64,000 nt of DNA from Krasilnikoviella flava (GTDB lineage Bacteria; Actinomycetota; Actinomycetes; Actinomycetales; Cellulomonadaceae). The translations under genes were made by a program, and so were the position numbers. The stretch lies in NCBI RefSeq assembly GCF_900167525.1, contig NZ_FUZQ01000007.1, positions 62,001 to 126,000 of the forward strand. The letters run 5' to 3'. Below, in pieces: positions 47,029 to 56,447 of this stretch (the first letter of the stretch is position 1; the number at the start of each line of letters is the position of its first letter). The notes below the pieces were generated by a model. That model was not told the origin of the DNA. It did no database searches and was given only the letters and a program-made list of their open reading frames with translations.

Positions 47029-49803
47029 TCAGGCCTTCGGCTTGCGGGCCGGAGGCTCGCCCAGCTCGGACGCGGTGACGACGATGCCGCCCTGGACGTC
47101 GGGGTTGCCCTGGCCCTCGACCGCCTCGATGACCTCGAGCGTGCCGGTCGCGCGGCCGGCGCCCCGGACGTCGTCGAGCGCAGACCGGACGCCGTCGAGC
47201 AGGCCGGCCGGGACCGCCATGGACGCGGCCAGGATCGGCGTGCGCATCGAGACCTTGGCCTCGGACTTGATCTTGCGCAGCGCGGCGAGCGCGTGCCCCG
47301 CGGCGGTGAGCTGCACGAGCTCGGCATCCCCCGCTGCGGCGCGGAGCGGGGCGGCGACGGGCCAAGCGGCGTGGTGCACCGAGCCGGCGCGCCACCACGA
47401 CCAGACCTCCTCGGTGGCGAACGGCAGGAACGGCGCCAGCAGCCGCAGCAGGGTGTCCACCGCGAGGGCGAGCGCCGTGCGGGCGGACTCGGTCTCGGCC
47501 GTCACCGCGGTGGCCGCGGCGCCGGCGCCGTACGCGCGGTCCTTGACCAGCTCGAGGTAGTCGTCGCAGAAGGTCCAGAAGAACGTCTCGGTGACCTCGA
47601 GCGCGCGGGTGTGGTCGTACGCCTCGAACGCGTCGGTGGCCTGCTCGACGACGTCCGCCAGCCCGGTGAGCATCGCGCGGTCCAGCGGCACGGTGACGCG
47701 GGCAGGGTCGAGCACGATCTCGCCGGCGCCGGTCTCGGGGTCGACGCCGAAGGTCAGCGCGAACTTCGAGGCGTTGAGCACCTTGATGGCGAGGCGACGG
47801 CCGATCTTCATCTGGCCGACCTCGAAGGCGGCGTCGGTGCCCAGACGTGCCGCGGCGGCCCAGTAGCGGACGGCGTCGGCGCCGTGCTCCTCCAGCAGCG
47901 CCATCGGCGTGACGACGTTGCCCTTGGACTTCGACATCTTCTTGCGGTCCGGGTCGAGGATCCAGCCGCTGATGGCCGCGTGCTTCCACGGCAGCACGCC
48001 GCACTCGAGGTGCGAGCGCACGACCGAGGAGAACAGCCAGGTGCGAATGATGTCCTGGCCCTGCGGGCGCAGGTCCATCGGGTAGACGCGGGAGAAGAGG
48101 TCGGCGTCGCGCTCCCAGCCGGACACGATGAGGGGCGAGAGCGACGACGTCGCCCAGGTGTCCATGACGTCGGCGTCGCCGACGAAACCGCCGGGCGCGC
48201 CGCGCTGGGACTCGTCGTAGCCCGCCGGGGCCTGCGACGTCGGGTCGACGGGCAGCTCGGCCTCGGACGGCACGATCGGGTGGTCGTGGTCGACGTCGCC
48301 CGCCTCGGTCAGCGGGTACCACAGCGGCACGGCCACGCCGAAGAAGCGCTGGCGCGAGATGAGCCAGTCCCCGTTGAGGCCGTTCACCCAGTTCTCGTAG
48401 CGCACGCGCATGAAGTCGGGGTGGAAGTCGAGCTCCTTGCCGCGCGCGAGCAGCTCGGCCTTGAGGTCGCGGGCCTCCCAGTCGCGCCCGCCGTTGCGGA
48501 TGTACCACTGGCGGGAGGTGACGATCTCGAGGGGCTTGTCGCCCTTCTCGTAGAAGTTCGTCATGCGCTGCGTGGCGCTGGGCTCGCCGTCCAGGTCCCC
48601 CGAGGCGCGCAGCGCGTCGACGACGGCCTTGCGGGCGCTGAACGTGGTCTTGCCGGCGAGCTCCTCGGTGTACAGGGCCTCGCCCGGCCCGCCCGCGACC
48701 CAGTCCGGCGTCTCGCGGGACAGGCGACCGTCGCGCTGGATGACGGAGCGGGTCGCGAGCTGCAGCTCGCGCCACCACTGCACGTCGGTGAGGTCGCCGA
48801 AGGTGCAGCACATCGCGATGCCGGCGCCCTTGTCCATCGCGGCGGCGGGGTGCGCGAGCACCGGCACCTCCACGCCGAACAGGGGAGAGGTGACGGTGGT
48901 GCCGAACAGGTCCTGGTACCGCTCGTCGTCGGGGTGCGCGATGAGCGCCACCACGGCCGGGATGAGCTCGGGCCGGGTGGTCTCGATGTACAGCGGGGTG
49001 CCGTCGGGCCGGTGGAACGCAACCCGGTGGTAGAAGCCGGGGTACTCCCGCGCCTCGAGCTCGGCCTGCGCGACCGCCGTCTGGAACGTCACGTCCCACA
49101 GGCCGGGGGCCTCGGCCTGGTAGGCCTCGCCGCGGGCGAGGTTGCGCAGGAACGCGCGCTGCGACGCGGCGCGCGAGGTGGTGTCGATGGTCTGGTAGTT
49201 CTGGGCCCAGTCCACGGACAGGCCGAGGCGCCGCCACAGCTCCTCGAACTGCCGCTCGTCGTCGGCGGTGAGCTGCTCGCACAGCTCGATGAAGTTGCGG
49301 CGGCTGACCGGCACCTGGTCGGCGGGCTTGACGTTCTTGCGGTCGGTGCCCTGGTGCGGGGGCTCGAAGCCCTCGACGTACGGCAGCGACGGGTCGCAGC
49401 GCACGCCGTAGTAGTTCTGCACGCGGCGCTCGGTGGGCAGGCCGTTGTCGTCCCAGCCCATGGGGTAGAAGACCTTCTTGCCCCGCATCCGCTGGAAGCG
49501 CGCGACCGTGTCGGTGTGGGTGTAGCTGAACACGTGGCCCACGTGCAGGGAGCCCGAGACCGTGGGCGGCGGGGTGTCGATCGAGTACACCTGCTCGCGC
49601 GTGGCGGTGCGGTCGAAGGCGTACGTGCCCTCGGCGGTCCAGCGCTCGTCGAAGCGCTGCTCCAGCCCGTCCAGGCTCACCTTGTCCGGTACCTCCCGGA
49701 CCACCGCGCGCACGACGTCGCCGGCTACGGTGCCGGCGGGCGGGGTCGCTGCGGGGGTCTGCGCGGGCGCGGTCGGCGCCTCGTGGGTCGGGAAGTCGCT
49801 CAT
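47029..49803 (-). CDS. valS: Valyl-tRNA synthetase
   Basis: The protein is 924 aa from ATG 49803. The HIGH region reads TPPPTVSGSLHVGHVFSYTHTD and the KMSKS loop DRKKMSKSKGNVV. The editing (CP1) domain is complete (IETTRPELIPAVVALIAHPDDERYQDLFGTTVTSPLFGVEVPVL). GWDDNGLPTERRVQNYYGVRCDP replaces the enterobacterial GTDHAGIATQ block. This pattern is that of the archaeal/Rickettsia-like (type 2) ValRS rather than the common bacterial form; this assignment comes from memory of family signatures. The C-terminal coiled-coil arm of bacterial ValRS appears reduced. No T-box is visible upstream. Confidence 0.95.
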   Translation of the reverse strand: MSDFPTHEAPTAPAQTPAATPPAGTVAGDVVRAVVREVPDKVSLDGLEQRFDERWTAEGTYAFDRTATREQVYSIDTPPPTVSGSLHVGHVFSYTHTDTVARFQRMRGKKVFYPMGWDDNGLPTERRVQNYYGVRCDPSLPYVEGFEPPHQGTDRKNVKPADQVPVSRRNFIELCEQLTADDERQFEELWRRLGLSVDWAQNYQTIDTTSRAASQRAFLRNLARGEAYQAEAPGLWDVTFQTAVAQAELEAREYPGFYHRVAFHRPDGTPLYIETTRPELIPAVVALIAHPDDERYQDLFGTTVTSPLFGVEVPVLAHPAAAMDKGAGIAMCCTFGDLTDVQWWRELQLATRSVIQRDGRLSRETPDWVAGGPGEALYTEELAGKTTFSARKAVVDALRASGDLDGEPSATQRMTNFYEKGDKPLEIVTSRQWYIRNGGRDWEARDLKAELLARGKELDFHPDFMRVRYENWVNGLNGDWLISRQRFFGVAVPLWYPLTEAGDVDHDHPIVPSEAELPVDPTSQAPAGYDESQRGAPGGFVGDADVMDTWATSSLSPLIVSGWERDADLFSRVYPMDLRPQGQDIIRTWLFSSVVRSHLECGVLPWKHAAISGWILDPDRKKMSKSKGNVVTPMALLEEHGADAVRYWAAAARLGTDAAFEVGQMKIGRRLAIKVLNASKFALTFGVDPETGAGEIVLDPARVTVPLDRAMLTGLADVVEQATDAFEAYDHTRALEVTETFFWTFCDDYLELVKDRAYGAGAAATAVTAETESARTALALAVDTLLRLLAPFLPFATEEVWSWWRAGSVHHAAWPVAAPLRAAAGDAELVQLTAAGHALAALRKIKSEAKVSMRTPILAASMAVPAGLLDGVRSALDDVRGAGRATGTLEVIEAVEGQGNPDVQGGIVVTASELGEPPARKPKA

Positions 49804-49919: not shown

Positions 49920-49999
49920 GGCGGCCGGCGCCACGGGTGGCGCCACCTCGAACCGTCCGGCCCGCTCCACGGGACCGGACCACGTCCCGGGAGGACGAG

Positions 50000-50053
50000 A
50001 TGCAGGCGATGTGTTGTCGGTGCTGTTGCCGCCGCTTCGCCCTGCCCGCCTGA
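50000..50053 (+). CDS. Poly-cysteine leader peptide (17 aa)
   Basis: ATG 50000 follows GGGAGGAC and encodes MQAMCCRCCCRRFALPA, then TGA. Five of its first ten residues are Cys, in two runs. It ends 16 bp before the first permease gene. Cys-rich small upstream ORFs in mycobacteria and other actinobacteria slow ribosomes when cysteine is scarce and so open the ribosome-binding site of the next gene (cysteine-responsive attenuation). The SD of the permease (GAGGAG) lies next to the self-complementary GGAGCTCC, so it could be hidden in a hairpin. It predicts that this importer is induced by cysteine shortage. Confidence 0.78.
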   Translation: MQAMCCRCCCRRFALPA

Positions 50054-50069
50054 CACCCGAGGAGCTCCC

Positions 50070-51017
50070 ATGACGCTCGACCACGCCGACGAGCTGGTCG
50101 TGCCCGAGGGGCAACCCCCGTCCGCCACCGGGCGGCGCACGTTCTGGCACCGCTTCGCCCAGGACCGGTTCGCCGTCGCCGGCGCGGTCACGGTGGTCGT
50201 CTACGTCGTCGTCGCCCTGTTCGCGCCCCTGATCACGCGCCTGCTCGGCGTCGACCCGTACACCTACGACCTGGCCGCCCTCGACGCGACGGGCGCCCCG
50301 GCCGGCTGGGGCGGCGGCATCAGCGCCGAGCACTGGTTCGGCGTCGAGCCGCTGACCGGCCGCGACCTGTTCGCGATCGTGCTCATGGGCTCGCGGACGT
50401 CGCTGGTCGTGGGGATCGGGGCCACCGTCGTCTCGATGTTCATCGGCACCGTCCTCGGGCTGCTCGCCGGCTACCTCGGCGGCTGGGTGGACTGGGTGGT
50501 CAGCCGCGGCGTCGACATCATGCTCGGCCTGCCGGCGCTGATCTTCATGATCGCGATCGGCGCCGTGGCCCCGGAGTCCTTCCCCCGTCTCCTGCTGCTC
50601 GTGCTGGTCATCGGCGTGTTCAGCTGGTCGTCCGTGGCCCGCGTCGTGCGCGGACAGGCCCTCGGCCTGCGGTCGCGCGGCTTCGTGCGCGCCTCCCAGG
50701 CGCTCGGTGCCGGGCACGGGCACGTCCTGTTCCGCCAGGTGCTGCCCAACCTGGCCGCCACCGTGGTCGTCTTCGCGACGATCAGCATCCCGGGCGCCAT
50801 CGGCGCAGAGGCGGCGCTGTCGTTCCTCGGTGTCGGCGTGCCGCCGCCGACGCCGTCGTGGGGCCGGTCCATCGGCGACGCCGTGACCTGGTTCAGCTCC
50901 GACCCGATGTACCTCGTCTTCCCCGGCCTCGCGCTGTTCGGCATCACGCTCGCGCTCAACGCGTTCGGCGACGGCCTGCGCGACGCTCTCGACCCGCGCT
51001 CCGGAGGCCGTCAGTGA
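50070..51017 (+). CDS. Peptide/nickel-type ABC transporter permease (DppC/OppC-like)
   Basis: The protein is 315 aa from ATG 50070. First membrane helix FAVAGAVTVVVYVVVALFAPLI, a long extracytoplasmic loop with WFGVEPLTGRDLFAIVLMGSRTSLVVGIG, and the permease EAA loop VVRGQALGLRSRGFVRASQALGAGHGHVLFRQVLPN. These are typical of the OppC component of class 5 importers. It overlaps the next permease by GTGA. In most dpp/opp operons the B-type permease comes first; here the C-type leads. It is the gene directly under the Cys-rich leader. Confidence 0.92.
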   Translation: MTLDHADELVVPEGQPPSATGRRTFWHRFAQDRFAVAGAVTVVVYVVVALFAPLITRLLGVDPYTYDLAALDATGAPAGWGGGISAEHWFGVEPLTGRDLFAIVLMGSRTSLVVGIGATVVSMFIGTVLGLLAGYLGGWVDWVVSRGVDIMLGLPALIFMIAIGAVAPESFPRLLLLVLVIGVFSWSSVARVVRGQALGLRSRGFVRASQALGAGHGHVLFRQVLPNLAATVVVFATISIPGAIGAEAALSFLGVGVPPPTPSWGRSIGDAVTWFSSDPMYLVFPGLALFGITLALNAFGDGLRDALDPRSGGRQ

Positions 51018-52006
51018 ACGCTCTGCGGTTCGTCGGCACGCGCCTCACGAGCATGGTCTTCGTGCTCCTCGCGGTCTCCCTCCTGACCTACGCGATCTTC
51101 GTGCTGCTGCCCGCCGACCCGGCCCAGCTCGCCTGCGGGCGGCCGTGCACGCCGGAGCGGCTCGAGACGGCGCGCGCCTTCATGGGGCTGGACCAGAACT
51201 TCCTGGTGCAGTGGTGGAACTTCGTGACGGGCATCTTCACGGGCCGCACCTTCGGGTCGGCGGGCGCGGAGATCACCTGCCCCGCCCCGTGCCTCGGCTA
51301 CTCCTTCGTGCTGCGCCAGCCGGTGACCGATCTCATCGTCGGGCGCCTGCCGGTGACGTTCTCGATCGCGCTCGGGGCCGCCGTCCTGTGGCTGCTCGCC
51401 GGTGTCGCGGCGGGCGTGGTCGCCGCGGTGCGCCGCGGCACCACCGTCGACCGCGCGATCATGGTCACCGCGATCACCGGGGTCTCCGCGCCCAGCTACC
51501 TCGTGGGGTTGCTCGGCATCCTGCTCTTCGGGTTCACGCTCGACATGGTGCCCGTGAACGGTTACGTGCCGTTCACCACCAGCCCCGTGGACTGGGCCTG
51601 GCACCTGGTGCTGCCGTGGTGCGTGCTGGCGTTCCTGTCGGCGGCGATCTACGCGCGGCTGACGCGCGCCCAGATGCTCGACGCCCTCGGGTCGGAGTAC
51701 GTGCGCACCGCCCGCGCCAAGGGGATCACCGAGCGGCGCGTCGTGACCCGCCACGCGCTGCGCAACGTCATGGTGCCGGTGGTCACGCTGTTCGGCCTCG
51801 ACCTCGGCGTGCTGCTGGGCGGCACCGTGATCACCGAGAAGGTGTTCTCGATGGCGGGGCTCGGCGCGTTGCTGCTCGACGCCGTCGGCAACACCGACGT
51901 CCCGCTGCTGGTGGGCGTCACCTTCTTCTCCGCGGCCCTCATCGTGGTCGCCAACCTGCTCGTCGACGTCGTGTACGGCGTCATGGACCCGCGGGTGCGC
52001 GCATGA
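51014..52006 (+). CDS. Peptide/nickel-type ABC transporter permease (DppB/OppB-like)
   Basis: The protein is 330 aa from GTG 51014. The N-terminal signature FVGTRLTSMVFVLLAVSLLTYAIFVLLPADPA is that of OppB. The periplasmic insert (CGRPCTPERLETARAFMGLDQNFLVQWWNFVTGIFTGRTFG) contains two Cys pairs (CGRPC, CPAPC) that could form disulfides. The EAA loop is EYVRTARAKGITERRVVTRHALRN. It pairs with the preceding permease to form the channel. The substrate-binding protein gene follows after about 80 bp with its own SD. Confidence 0.93.
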   Translation: MNALRFVGTRLTSMVFVLLAVSLLTYAIFVLLPADPAQLACGRPCTPERLETARAFMGLDQNFLVQWWNFVTGIFTGRTFGSAGAEITCPAPCLGYSFVLRQPVTDLIVGRLPVTFSIALGAAVLWLLAGVAAGVVAAVRRGTTVDRAIMVTAITGVSAPSYLVGLLGILLFGFTLDMVPVNGYVPFTTSPVDWAWHLVLPWCVLAFLSAAIYARLTRAQMLDALGSEYVRTARAKGITERRVVTRHALRNVMVPVVTLFGLDLGVLLGGTVITEKVFSMAGLGALLLDAVGNTDVPLLVGVTFFSAALIVVANLLVDVVYGVMDPRVRA

Positions 52007-52087
52007 GCGCCCGTGCGTACGCGGGGCGATGTCCCGGCGGCACGCGCCACCCCCACCCCACGTCCTTCTCCGAGGAGCCCTGAACCC

Positions 52088-53776
52088 ATGACCCGCAACA
52101 CCACCCGCCGACGGTCCGTCGGCGCCGTCTCCGCCGCCGCCGCGCTCGCGCTGGTCCTCACCGCGTGCGGCGCGAACGACAAGGACGACAGCGCGACCGG
52201 CAGCCCGGCCGCCGCCCAGCAGGGCGGCACCCTGCACATCCTCACGTCGGCGCCGTCGATCAACTGGGACCCGGCCACGAGCCAGAACCTCGCCATCACG
52301 ACGCTCGGGCTGGTGGAGCGCCGCCTGACGGCCTGGCAGACCAACTCGGACGGCAGCACCGAGGTGGTGCCCGACCTGGCCACCGACACCGGCACCGCGT
52401 CCGACGACGGCAAGACCTGGACGTACACCCTCAAGGACGGCGTCGCGTTCGAGGACGGCACGCCGATCACGTCGCAGGACGTCAAGTACTCCGTCGAGCG
52501 GTCGTTCGCCCCGGAGCTCACCGGCGGGCTGAGCTACCACAAGAGCCTGCTGACCGGCGGCGACGACTACGCCGGCCCGTACGACGGCAAGACCCTCGAC
52601 TCGATCGAGACGCCGGACGACAAGACGATCGTCTTCCACCTGGACAGCGCGTACGGCGACTGGCCGTGGATCGTCTCGATGCCCGCCTTCGGCGCGGTGC
52701 CCGAGGACAAGGACGACGTCTCGACGTACACCACGACGCCCGTCGCGACGGGTCCGTACAAGGTGGCCGATACGCAGGAGGGGACCTCGGTCACCCTCGA
52801 GCGCAACGACGCCTGGGACCAGTCCACGGACGAGGCGCGCACGGCGGGCCCCGACTCGGTCGTCTTCGAGCTGGGCCAGGACGAGTCCGTTGTGGCGCAG
52901 CGCCTCATCGCCGACGCGGGCGACGACCAGAACGCCTTCGGCGCGACGTTCGTCCCCGCGGCTCAGCTCGCGCAGGTGCAGAACGACGCGAACGCCAAGG
53001 AGCGTCTCGTGACCTCCGGCCCGGGCGCGCTCGCGTACCTCGCGATCAACACCGAGGCCGAGGGGCTCGACGACGTCAAGGTGCGCGAGGCGCTCCAGTA
53101 CGCCGTGGACAAGCAGGCGTTCCAGGTGGCCTCGGGCGGTGCGATCGCCGGCGACCTGGCGACCATGCTCATCACGCCGGGGATCCCCGGGCGCGAGGAG
53201 TACGACCTGTACCCGGCGGAGCCGTCCGGCGACCCGGACAAGGCGAAGGACCTGCTCGCGGACGCGGGCTGGAAGGACCGGCCGCTGCGGCTCGTCGTCC
53301 CGGACGACGCACCCACGCGGGCCAAGGCGGAGGCCATCGAGCAGGGCCTGAAGCGTGCCGGCCTCACGGTGAAGATCGTGACCCAGCCGGCAGAGGTCTG
53401 GACGCAGACCGTGACGCAGGGCGACGGGTCGAAGTACGACCTCACGCTCTCGTCGTGGCAGCCGGACTTCCCGAGCGCGAACGGCAACATCCAGCCGCTG
53501 TTCGCGTCCTCGCAGATCGGCGACGGCGGGTACAACCTGTCGCGCTACTCGAACGCGGACGTGGACGCGCTCATCGAGCAGGCGACCCAGGAGACCGACA
53601 CCGACGCGGCGGCCGCCCTCTGGGCGCAGGCCGACAGGGCGATCGGCCTGGACGCACCCGTGGTCCCGCTGATCTACACGAAGAACTCCTTCCTGCACGG
53701 CTCCAAGGTGCAGAACTTCGAGATCCCGGACTTCCCGGCGTACCCGAACTACCTCAAGGTCTCGCTGGCACCGTGA
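52088..53776 (+). CDS. Lipoprotein substrate-binding protein of the peptide/opine/nickel family (SBP family 5)
   Basis: The protein is 562 aa from ATG 52088. Signal peptide RRRSVGAVSAAAALALVLTACG with lipobox LTAC, so it is anchored outside the membrane. Family 5 signatures: WTYTLKDGVAFEDGTPITSQDVKYSVERSF, DDVKVREALQYAVDKQAF, YDLTLSSWQPDFPSANGNIQPLF, YSNADVDALIEQATQETD. The DFPSANGNIQPLF segment near the C-terminus lines the ligand pocket in relatives that take short peptides or other small compounds; the ligand cannot be read from it. The Cys-rich leader upstream of the operon favours a sulfur-containing ligand (inference). Confidence 0.92.
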   Translation: MTRNTTRRRSVGAVSAAAALALVLTACGANDKDDSATGSPAAAQQGGTLHILTSAPSINWDPATSQNLAITTLGLVERRLTAWQTNSDGSTEVVPDLATDTGTASDDGKTWTYTLKDGVAFEDGTPITSQDVKYSVERSFAPELTGGLSYHKSLLTGGDDYAGPYDGKTLDSIETPDDKTIVFHLDSAYGDWPWIVSMPAFGAVPEDKDDVSTYTTTPVATGPYKVADTQEGTSVTLERNDAWDQSTDEARTAGPDSVVFELGQDESVVAQRLIADAGDDQNAFGATFVPAAQLAQVQNDANAKERLVTSGPGALAYLAINTEAEGLDDVKVREALQYAVDKQAFQVASGGAIAGDLATMLITPGIPGREEYDLYPAEPSGDPDKAKDLLADAGWKDRPLRLVVPDDAPTRAKAEAIEQGLKRAGLTVKIVTQPAEVWTQTVTQGDGSKYDLTLSSWQPDFPSANGNIQPLFASSQIGDGGYNLSRYSNADVDALIEQATQETDTDAAAALWAQADRAIGLDAPVVPLIYTKNSFLHGSKVQNFEIPDFPAYPNYLKVSLAP

Positions 53777-55461
53777 GCACCGACACCGGTATCGATCCCG
53801 GGGACGGGCAGCCCCTCCTGCAGGTGGAGGGGCTGTCCGTCGTGTTCGACGCGGCCGGCGCGCCGGCGGTCGACGGTTCGTCATGGGCGCTGCGTGCCGG
53901 CCAGGTGACCGCGCTGGTGGGGGAGTCCGGCTCCGGCAAGTCGGTCTCGGCGATGGCCGTGCTGGGGCTCCTTCCCCCGAGCGCCACGGTGGTGGGCAGC
54001 ATCCGGTACGACGGGGACGAGCTGGTCGGCGCCTCGCCCGACGAGGTCCGGGCCGTGCGGGGAGCGGTGTTCTCGCTGGTCTCGCAGGAGCCGATGAGCG
54101 CGTGGAACCCCGTGCTCACCATCGGCGACCAGGTGGCCGAGGCGGTGCGGGCGCACGCCCGCGTCGCGCGGTCCGCCGCGCGCGAGCGGGTGCTCGGGCT
54201 GCTGCGCGAGGCCGGCCTGGCCGACGCGGAGCGGGTCGCGCGCTCCTACCCGCACCAGCTGTCGGGCGGGCAGCTGCAGCGTGCCCTCATCGCGATGGCG
54301 CTGTCGCAGGACCCGGTGGCGATCGTCGCGGACGAGCCGACGACGGCGCTCGACGTCACCGTGCAGGCCGACATCCTCGACCTGCTGCGGCGACTGAGGG
54401 ACACCCGCGGCACGGCGGTGCTGCTCATCACGCACGACATGGGCGTGGTCGCCGACCTCGCGGACGACGTCGTCGTGATGCGCGACGGACGCGTCGTCGA
54501 GCACGCCCCGGTGCGCGAGCTGTTCGGTGCGCCGCGCGAGGAGTACACGCGCACGCTGCTCGACGCCGTCCCGCACCTGGGCCGGCAGCTCGACCAGGCC
54601 GCCGAGGTCCGCGAACCGGCGGAGGCCGTCGGGGCGACCGGCGACCACGACGACGTCGTCGTGCTGGAGGACGTCGACGTCGTGTACCCGGGCGGGCGCC
54701 GCCGGGCGCCCGTGCGTGCGGCGGACGGGGTGAGCCTGCGGATCGCGGCGGGCGAGGTGCTCGGCCTCGTGGGGGAGTCGGGGTCCGGCAAGTCCACGCT
54801 CGGTCAGGTGGTCTCGGGCCTGCTGGCCCCCGACCGGGGCCGGGTCGTGGTGGACGGCCTCGAGCTGGCGGGCGCCCGGCGGGCCGACCTGCGCGCCGTG
54901 CGCCGGCGGACGGGGATCGTGTTCCAGGACCCGGCCTCCACGCTCAACCCCCGCTGGTCGGTGGGCACCTGCGTCGCCGAGCCCTTGCGCCTGCACGCGC
55001 AGCTCGGCGAGGAGGCGACCCGGGCGCGGGTGCTGGAGCTGCTCGCGATGGTCGGGCTGGACGCGGAGCACGCCGCCCGGTTCCCGCACGAGCTCTCCGG
55101 CGGCCAGCGGCAGCGGGTGGCCATCGCGCGGGCGGTCGCCCTCGACCCGGCGGTGCTGGTGGCGGACGAGCCGACGAGCGCACTCGACGTCTCGGTCCAG
55201 GCCCGGGTGCTGGACGTGTTCGCCGAGCTGCAGGCGCGGCTCGGCTTCGCGTGCCTCTTCGTCTCGCACAACCTCGCCGTCGTCGAGCGCGTCAGCGACC
55301 GGGTGGCCGTCATGCAGGGGGGCCGCATCGTCGAGACGGGCCCGACGGCACGGGTCCTGGGCGCACCGGAGGAGGAGTACACCCGGCGCCTCGTGGGGGC
55401 CGCGCCGGTCGCCGACCCCGAGCTGCAGGAGCGCCGCCGGCGCGAGCGGGCGGGGGTCTGA
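53773..55461 (+). CDS. Fused dual ATPase of the peptide-type ABC importer (DppD-DppF fusion)
   Basis: The protein is 562 aa from GTG 53773, overlapping the previous stop. Two complete ATPase domains in one chain: VGESGSGKS, LSGGQLQRALIAMALSQDPVAIVADEPTTALDV and VGESGSGKST, LSGGQRQRVAIARAVALDPAVLVADEPTSALDV. A His/Asp-containing linker (DHDDVVVLEDVDVVYPGG) joins them. Such D-F fusions are common in actinobacterial class 5 importers and supply both sites of the transporter. It completes the operon permease-permease-SBP-ATPase. Confidence 0.94.
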   Translation: MSTDTGIDPGDGQPLLQVEGLSVVFDAAGAPAVDGSSWALRAGQVTALVGESGSGKSVSAMAVLGLLPPSATVVGSIRYDGDELVGASPDEVRAVRGAVFSLVSQEPMSAWNPVLTIGDQVAEAVRAHARVARSAARERVLGLLREAGLADAERVARSYPHQLSGGQLQRALIAMALSQDPVAIVADEPTTALDVTVQADILDLLRRLRDTRGTAVLLITHDMGVVADLADDVVVMRDGRVVEHAPVRELFGAPREEYTRTLLDAVPHLGRQLDQAAEVREPAEAVGATGDHDDVVVLEDVDVVYPGGRRRAPVRAADGVSLRIAAGEVLGLVGESGSGKSTLGQVVSGLLAPDRGRVVVDGLELAGARRADLRAVRRRTGIVFQDPASTLNPRWSVGTCVAEPLRLHAQLGEEATRARVLELLAMVGLDAEHAARFPHELSGGQRQRVAIARAVALDPAVLVADEPTSALDVSVQARVLDVFAELQARLGFACLFVSHNLAVVERVSDRVAVMQGGRIVETGPTARVLGAPEEEYTRRLVGAAPVADPELQERRRRERAGV

Positions 55462-55499: not shown

Positions 55500-56447
55500 A
55501 TGAAGAACGTGACGAAGGATGCGGACGTGGCCGGGCCGGTCGACGTCGTGCGGCGGTTCAACCGCAGCTACACCCAGCGGGTCGGCGCCCTCGAGGACTC
55601 GTTCCTCGGCACGGGGATGCCGCTCGGCACGGCCCGGCTGCTGTTCGAGATCGGCACCGAGCCCGGCACCACCCGCGACCTGCGCGCCCGCCTCGGGCTC
55701 GACTCCGGCTACCTCAGCCGCCTGCTGCGGCGGCTGGAGTCGGACGGCCTGGTCGTCGTCGTCCCCGACGACGACGACCGTCGTCGCCGCCGTGTGGACC
55801 TCACCGCCGCCGGCCACCGTGCCTGGGACGACCTCGAGCGACGGTCGGTGGACCGGGCCCGCGACCTCGTCGCGCCGCTCACCGCACGCCAGCGGGCCCG
55901 GCTCGCCGCCGCCCTCGCGGAGGCCGACCTGCTGGTGCGGGCGGCGACGGTCACGCTCGAGCGCACGGACCCTGCCTCGCCCCTCGCGCGGTCGGCCGTC
56001 GCCGCCTACGTGGCCGAGCTCGGTGAGCGGCTGCCCGGCGGGTTCGATGCCGGGCCCGCACCGGCGCCCGGCGAGGCCGACCCCGAGGACGCCCGCCTCG
56101 CGGCGCCGTCGGGCGCGTTCGTCGTCGCGACGAGCGACGGCGAGCCCGTCGCCTGCGGCGGCGTGCGGACGCTGTCGGACGATGTTCCCGACGGTGCCGC
56201 CGGGGGCGTCGGGGAGATCAAGCGGATGTGGGTGCACCCCGGCTGGCGGGGCGCGGGGCTCGGCTCCCGGCTGCTGCGTCACCTCGAGGGCGTGAGCCGC
56301 GACCTCGGCCACCGCGAGGTGCGCCTCGACACCAACGGGACGCTCGCCGAGGCGGTCGCGATGTACGAGCGGGCAGGCTACCGGCGCATCGCCCGGTACA
56401 ACGACAACCCGTACGCCGAGCACTTCTTCGCCAAGCGCCTGGGCTGA
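55500..56447 (+). CDS. MarR-family regulator fused to a GNAT acetyltransferase
   Basis: The protein is 315 aa from ATG 55500. Residues 1-150 are a MarR winged helix ([58 protein letters not shown]). Residues about 200-315 are a GNAT domain with [33 protein letters not shown] (acetyl-CoA loop) and [37 protein letters not shown]. MarR-GNAT fusions are recurrent in actinobacteria and firmicutes; the enzyme substrate is unknown. No SD is present between the operator and the ATG, so translation is probably leaderless. It might control the ABC importer just upstream, but the operator position points to self-control. Confidence 0.9.

Follow-up and report, generated by a model that had tools for sequence, protein, structure and literature searches.

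The 17-codon ORF that directly precedes an Opp/Dpp-type importer operon in the window (the whole 64-kb stretch of Krasilnikoviella flava DNA analysed here) likely acts as the cysteine sensor in a leader-peptide attenuator that controls this importer, whose cargo would probably be a cysteine source. Judged from the sequence, the locus has the general make-up of such a system, i.e. a short ORF with tandem Cys codons placed directly 5′ of the first gene of the operon and conserved in relatives. In the proposed mechanism, a ribosome would load at the Shine-Dalgarno sequence (SD) of the leader and reach the Cys codons from codon 5 onwards. When Cys-tRNA(Cys) is scarce it would stall there, approximately 45-60 nt ahead of the start codon of the permease gene, and the stalled ribosome may then alter access to the downstream message, either at the translation start or for Rho or RNase. 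The expected outcome is raised expression of the four-gene importer, which would take up a cysteine source.

The leader ORF and the importer operon

The leader ORF (50000-50053, plus strand) encodes MQAMCCRCCCRRFALPA and ends with a TGA stop, with Cys at codons 5, 6, 8, 9 and 10. Its ATG is preceded, at a distance of 5 nt, by the SD GGGAGG (49989-49994, plus strand), and the orthologous leaders are likewise SD-preceded. A gap of 16 nt separates the stop from the permease ATG, which is located at 50070. Sequence and translation thereby confirm what the initial annotation had described, namely a 17-codon ORF with a good SD, with Cys encoded by five of the first ten codons and with a stop 16 nt ahead of the permease gene. 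Dinucleotide-preserving shuffling of the 266-nt intergenic region, with short ORFs ending at most 60 nt from the end of the region being counted, yielded no short ORF with five Cys in the first ten codons (0 of 4000 shuffles), nor an SD-bearing short ORF reaching even three Cys (likewise 0/4000). Consequently, the poly-Cys ORF is not attributable to chance. It is also the sole ORF of up to 60 codons on either strand of the window with at least four Cys in its first ten codons.

The SD of the permease gene, AGGAG (50060-50064, plus strand), had further been described as overlapping a self-complementary GGAGCTCC. The overlap is real, as GGAGCTCC occupies 50061-50068, but neither the conservation of the palindrome nor its capacity to form a hairpin could be upheld. 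The orthologues carry GGAGTCCC, GGAGATCC or GGAGACCC at this place, and eight contiguous self-complementary bases are unable to fold; a role as a regulatory hairpin was therefore rejected. Neither an intrinsic terminator nor a sigma-70 promoter was detected in the intergenic region. A search against Rfam returned a single, sub-threshold match, and the NCBIfam models matched none of six Cys-rich leader peptides.

Domain profile matches define the four downstream genes, all on the plus strand: an OppC/DppC-type permease (50070-51017; PF00528 and OppC_N), an OppB/DppB-type permease with a GTG start (51014-52006; PF19300 and PF00528), a family-5 solute-binding lipoprotein (52088-53776; SBP_bac_5, also identified by a PDB match and a motif alignment) and a fused OppD-OppF-type ATPase with two ABC_tran domains (53773-55461). 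Permeases with OppC_N and BPD_transp_1_N, an SBP_bac_5 lipoprotein and an ATPase with oligo_HPY together place the system among the Opp/Dpp (PepT) ABC importers, so that the dpp/opp-like class assigned from the sequence alone is borne out by the subunits. A 26-codon ORF, MSARAYAGRCPGGTRHPHPTSFSEEP (52003-52083), shares an ATGA overlap with the stop of the second permease gene and ends just before the binding-protein gene; it may be a chance occurrence.

These four importer genes are the only genes common to the orthologous loci, and no linked sulfur-metabolism gene is found beside the orthologous operons. The divergent valyl-tRNA synthetase gene (valS, 47029-49803, minus strand) adjoins the operon in most of the window's family; however, it is absent beside the operon in Cellulomonas alba, in Micromonospora and in the Actinomycetaceae set described below. 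It was therefore rejected as part of the system, and the same distribution indicates that the leader travels with the importer. Directly 3′ of the importer lies a gene for a MarR-type regulator fused to a GNAT acetyltransferase (55500-56447). This gene and the downstream F420/LLM genes were rejected as operon members, as they are unconserved beside orthologous operons.

Conservation and spacing of the Cys codons

Homologues of the permease were gathered from named genomes and then from the family, the order, the class and one further family. The leader was found in 11/11 orthologous operons of the window's family, in one operon of Micromonospora and in 24/24 operons of one Actinomycetaceae genus, probably Actinomyces, giving 36 operons with that of the window included, in which sequences from a single genus are not independent of each other. 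Conservation of the Cys codons in relatives had been set beforehand as the test of the attenuation reading; the Cys codons proved to be conserved in every orthologous operon of the clade, and the test did not refute this reading.

The leaders span 9-23 codons and contain 2-5 Cys codons. Their forms differ between lineages: VRMSCCRC... in Promicromonospora (n=4), VRxVACCRCRC... in Isoptericola and Puerhibacterium, V..MCCRF... in the Sanguibacter type (n=3), VRACCRC... in Cellulomonas alba and MAGRCCRGL, followed by the stop, in Micromonospora avicenniae. The Actinomycetaceae leaders always comprise 11 codons (24/24), e.g. MTKRMCCCCCR, MAKRMWSCCCR and MLAERMCCCCR, each running directly into the stop. 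Start codon, SD, frame and stop are retained in 36/36 operons, while Cys is encoded by TGT or TGC and the following Arg by CGG, CGC or CGT. This synonymous variation, together with the kept frame and stop, points to selection on the Cys codons at the coding level.

Within the window's genus, only one of 18 genomes, that of the window itself, holds a permease match at E ≤ 1e-100. Genes with a leader occupy three separate positions in the permease tree, a pattern that requires three gains or losses. Among the related importers outside the clade that were examined, those of more distant relatives lack the Cys leader; it was not found before importers of Curtobacterium or more distant taxa, even upstream of a binding-protein gene placed first. 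In Pseudoclavibacter (locus L039), a short ORF, MSEKCCGCRMGS, occurs 188-226 nt before the binding-protein match of a related importer; it has no clear SD and may be due to chance.

The spacing of these elements bears on how a stall would be read. Throughout the window's family and Micromonospora, the first Cys is codon 4-6 and lies 55-65 nt ahead of the permease start (mean 59.2, sd 3.1), whereas the leader length (9-23 codons) and the gap between leader and permease (7-40 nt) vary. Relative to the permease start, the site at which a ribosome would stall is thus better kept than the stop.

A different reading would place the control at the stop codon, with finishing ribosomes either being handed over to the permease gene or, while terminating, covering its SD. 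A shortage of Cys would then change the number of ribosomes arriving, possibly lowering rather than raising importer expression. The geometry among close relatives is compatible with such coupling, as in nearly all close orthologues the leader stop and the permease SD overlap (TAGGAG, CCTAGGAG or TAAGGA), with 7-16 nt from stop to start. However, direct coupling would have to span 40 nt in Micromonospora and 48-77 nt in the Actinomycetaceae, which is too far, and even within the window's group it is the Cys-to-start spacing, rather than the stop-to-start spacing, that is better kept. Repression upon Cys shortage would also be odd for an importer in a group that senses Cys. Taken together, we regard coupling at the stop as unlikely, and stalling at the Cys codons remains the favoured explanation.

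Further Cys leaders in the same and related genomes

A covariance model built on the Actinomycetaceae leaders detected second, near-identical leaders (e.g. VRMRMCCCCCR and VVMRMCCCSCR, both directly followed by the stop) in many genomes of the genus; 33 of 40 genomes match the model when either copy is counted. The second copies lie directly 5′ of a polar-amino-acid ABC importer (PAAT) in 23/23 cases inspected. This importer consists of an ATPase, a family-3 binding protein and a permease and is unrelated to the Opp/Dpp importer; its permease is nearest to a cystine permease model, with a match below the cut-off.

The recurrence of the peptide before a second importer also weighs against the proposal that the short ORF makes a Cys-rich micropeptide with a function of its own, binding metal or acting in redox chemistry, rather than serving as a sensor in cis. 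An invariant CCR core in the window's family would suit a functional peptide. Still, length, C-terminus and Cys number vary widely (9-23 residues, 2-5 Cys), Arg replaces Cys at several positions in the Actinomycetaceae set, and the ORF always lies at a similar spacing from the importer gene, making a micropeptide very improbable compared with a cis-acting leader.

In one genome, a leader reading VPMGMHCRCCR up to its stop precedes a sugar-type ABC importer (locus L234, 1100-7901; also L226). The locus, placed between a TrmH gene and the PAAT operon, includes a GH4 glycosidase and a PIG-L deacetylase that has BshB and Mca, the bacillithiol and mycothiol deacetylases, as its closest matches, and may possibly serve salvage of a low-molecular-weight thiol.

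Cys leaders also occur on sulfur genes. The genome of the window carries a poly-Cys leader, MTTAAHRLLVTTRHGMPACVRRSMRSCLCCCR, ending in SCLCCCR and the stop, 135 nt before sulfite reductase (locus L178, G000:C8:401619-401717, minus strand). TACGGT stands just upstream of its ATG, so that this leader is possibly leaderless, as in mycobacteria. In related genomes, sulfite reductase and cysK are preceded by short ORFs rich in Cys. Those near cysK, e.g. MSVRVCTPFSAACACTPCCRCL with its stop, lie approximately 200-290 nt 5′ of the matched part of the gene (loci L166, L168, L169 and L170) and are possible attenuators. No leader with at least three Cys codons was found at the window genome's own cysK, and 11 other loci of this genome in which a frame starts with Cys-Cys established no further leader, being frames longer than a leader or short ones without a recognised adjoining sulfur-linked gene. 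The view that a cysteine-sensing leader stands ahead of an Opp/Dpp-type importer, already put forward in the initial annotation, is thus supported by the clade-wide Cys codons as well as by Cys-rich leaders on sulfur genes of the same genomes.

RNA folding and read-out of the stall

The Actinomycetaceae leaders (n=24) share a consensus fold in RNAalifold. It comprises a helix in which leader codons 3-5 (GCGAAUG) pair with CAUUCGC 3′ of the stop, a hairpin CUGUCG-yuga-CGACAG around the leader stop, a hairpin immediately 5′ of the permease SD, and three pairs joining codon 2 and the SD. Over its 23 pairs, 98% of cells are paired, as against 29-47% when the structure is slid along the alignment, and covariation support is modest, with double changes at only two pairs. 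The alignment of the window's leader with its close relatives did not give a convincing consensus fold, and the Actinomycetaceae covariance model does not match the window's leader, showing that the fold is not common to both lineages.

Pairing between the 5′ region of the leader and the permease ribosome-binding site (RBS) was no better than in shuffled sequences for the window (z = +0.85), and exceeded shuffles in Isoptericola and Puerhibacterium (z ≈ -2.9), in C. alba (-2.0) and in several Actinomycetaceae (-2 to -4). The effect of a stall was simulated by masking the stretch that a ribosome halted at the first Cys codon would cover and comparing the energy needed to open the RBS. In the window the opening cost went from 4.6 to 5.3 kcal/mol, i.e. 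no easing was obtained, and the simulated stall relieved the RBS by more than 1 kcal/mol in 6/12 leaders of the window's group and in 7/24 of the Actinomycetaceae.

It is hardly probable that the ORF is untranslated and owes its Cys codons merely to conservation of a DNA or RNA motif, TGYTGYCG. Such a motif would fit the strong retention of TGTTGTCGG among close relatives and, in the Actinomycetaceae set, a conserved hairpin of which the last Cys-Arg codons make up one arm. Against it, most Cys codons of that set sit in an unpaired loop, and the intact frames and synonymous changes described above speak for a translated leader.

Substrate of the importer

The nearest solved structure to the binding protein is OppA2 of Streptomyces clavuligerus (PDB 2wok, E 2e-75), and a W-x-x-D motif in the protein aligns with the equivalent part of peptide binders. 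Glutathione, cystine peptides or another thiol, named in the initial annotation, would be putative cargo. None of the four subunits reaches the NCBIfam cut-offs of the glutathione importer GsiABCD (scores against cut-offs, in bits: GsiA 489/1077, GsiB 98/594, GsiC 202/463, GsiD 213/484). That the importer probably brings in a cysteine source is a conclusion drawn from the leader rather than from the protein.

Relation to known systems

Cys leader peptides have been reported before cys/cbs operons of Mycobacterium, Propionibacterium acnes and Bifidobacterium longum; their Cys runs lie close to the stop codon, and they have no recognisable terminators (PMC1262725). Leaderless mycobacterial sORFs precede cysA2, nirA and Rv0485 (Shell et al. 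2015, PMC4633059), and the poly-Cys sORFs of mycobacteria are, according to the accounts of Canestrari et al. 2020 given in PMC9094748 and PMC9031893, established as cysteine-responsive attenuators. In Rhodobacterales, the uORFC-8-2 motif upstream of cysS contains a tandem-Cys uORF and has been read as ribosome-mediated attenuation (PMC8632094).

The window's leader resembles the mycobacterial sORFs in being a short tandem-Cys ORF at the head of an actinobacterial operon, with a ribosome that would sense Cys limitation, and in the parallel use of such ORFs at several operons, one being that of nirA (sulfite reductase), a gene that is poly-Cys-led in the window's genome as well. It differs in several respects. 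The strong SD before the start codon, in the window and its orthologues alike, argues against a leaderless start; the Cys run covers codons 5-10 of 17 instead of the C-terminus; an Opp/Dpp-type importer takes the place of a sulfur assimilation gene as the target; and RBS sequestration is unsupported for the window's own RNA. Accordingly, the mycobacterial attenuation layout initially assigned to the locus stands as regards the cysteine-sensing leader but not in its exact arrangement, the mycobacterial leaders being leaderless or having Cys near the stop (PMC4633059, PMC1262725). The cys/cbs leaders likewise share the Cys-codon runs and the lack of a recognisable terminator with the present leader; they precede biosynthetic operons, however, and their Cys run near the stop is a feature seen here in the Actinomycetaceae leaders only and not in that of the window. 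With uORFC-8-2 the likeness is limited to the uORF with tandem Cys codons, as that alphaproteobacterial element has two stems and an intrinsic terminator and controls cysteinyl-tRNA synthetase.

In the literature searched, no description of a Cys leader before an Opp/Dpp-type importer was found. Cysteine attenuation is already known for cysteine-making genes, and an Opp/Dpp-type importer as its target would appear to be new. The present leaders would carry actinobacterial cysteine attenuation beyond biosynthesis to uptake, add SD-led forms to the leaderless sORFs of mycobacteria, and widen its range to Cellulomonadaceae-type bacteria, Micromonospora and Actinomycetaceae. They also provide a searchable RNA signature for cysteine-regulated importers. 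The substrates of Opp/Dpp-type importers are unreadable from sequence, and a leader that senses one amino acid would name the nutritional purpose of the operon. We suggest, as a tentative generalization, that the poly-Cys leader may be a reusable actinobacterial module placed before importers from more than one family, namely those of the Opp/Dpp and polar-amino-acid types and, in a single genome, a sugar-type importer with a thiol-deacetylase-like gene next to it. In the window's lineage, where the Cys run is N-terminal and an RBS-sequestering fold is not detectable, the stall might be read by a non-mycobacterial route. The module could then help to recognise importers, so far uncharacterised, that take up cysteine sources or low-molecular-weight thiols.
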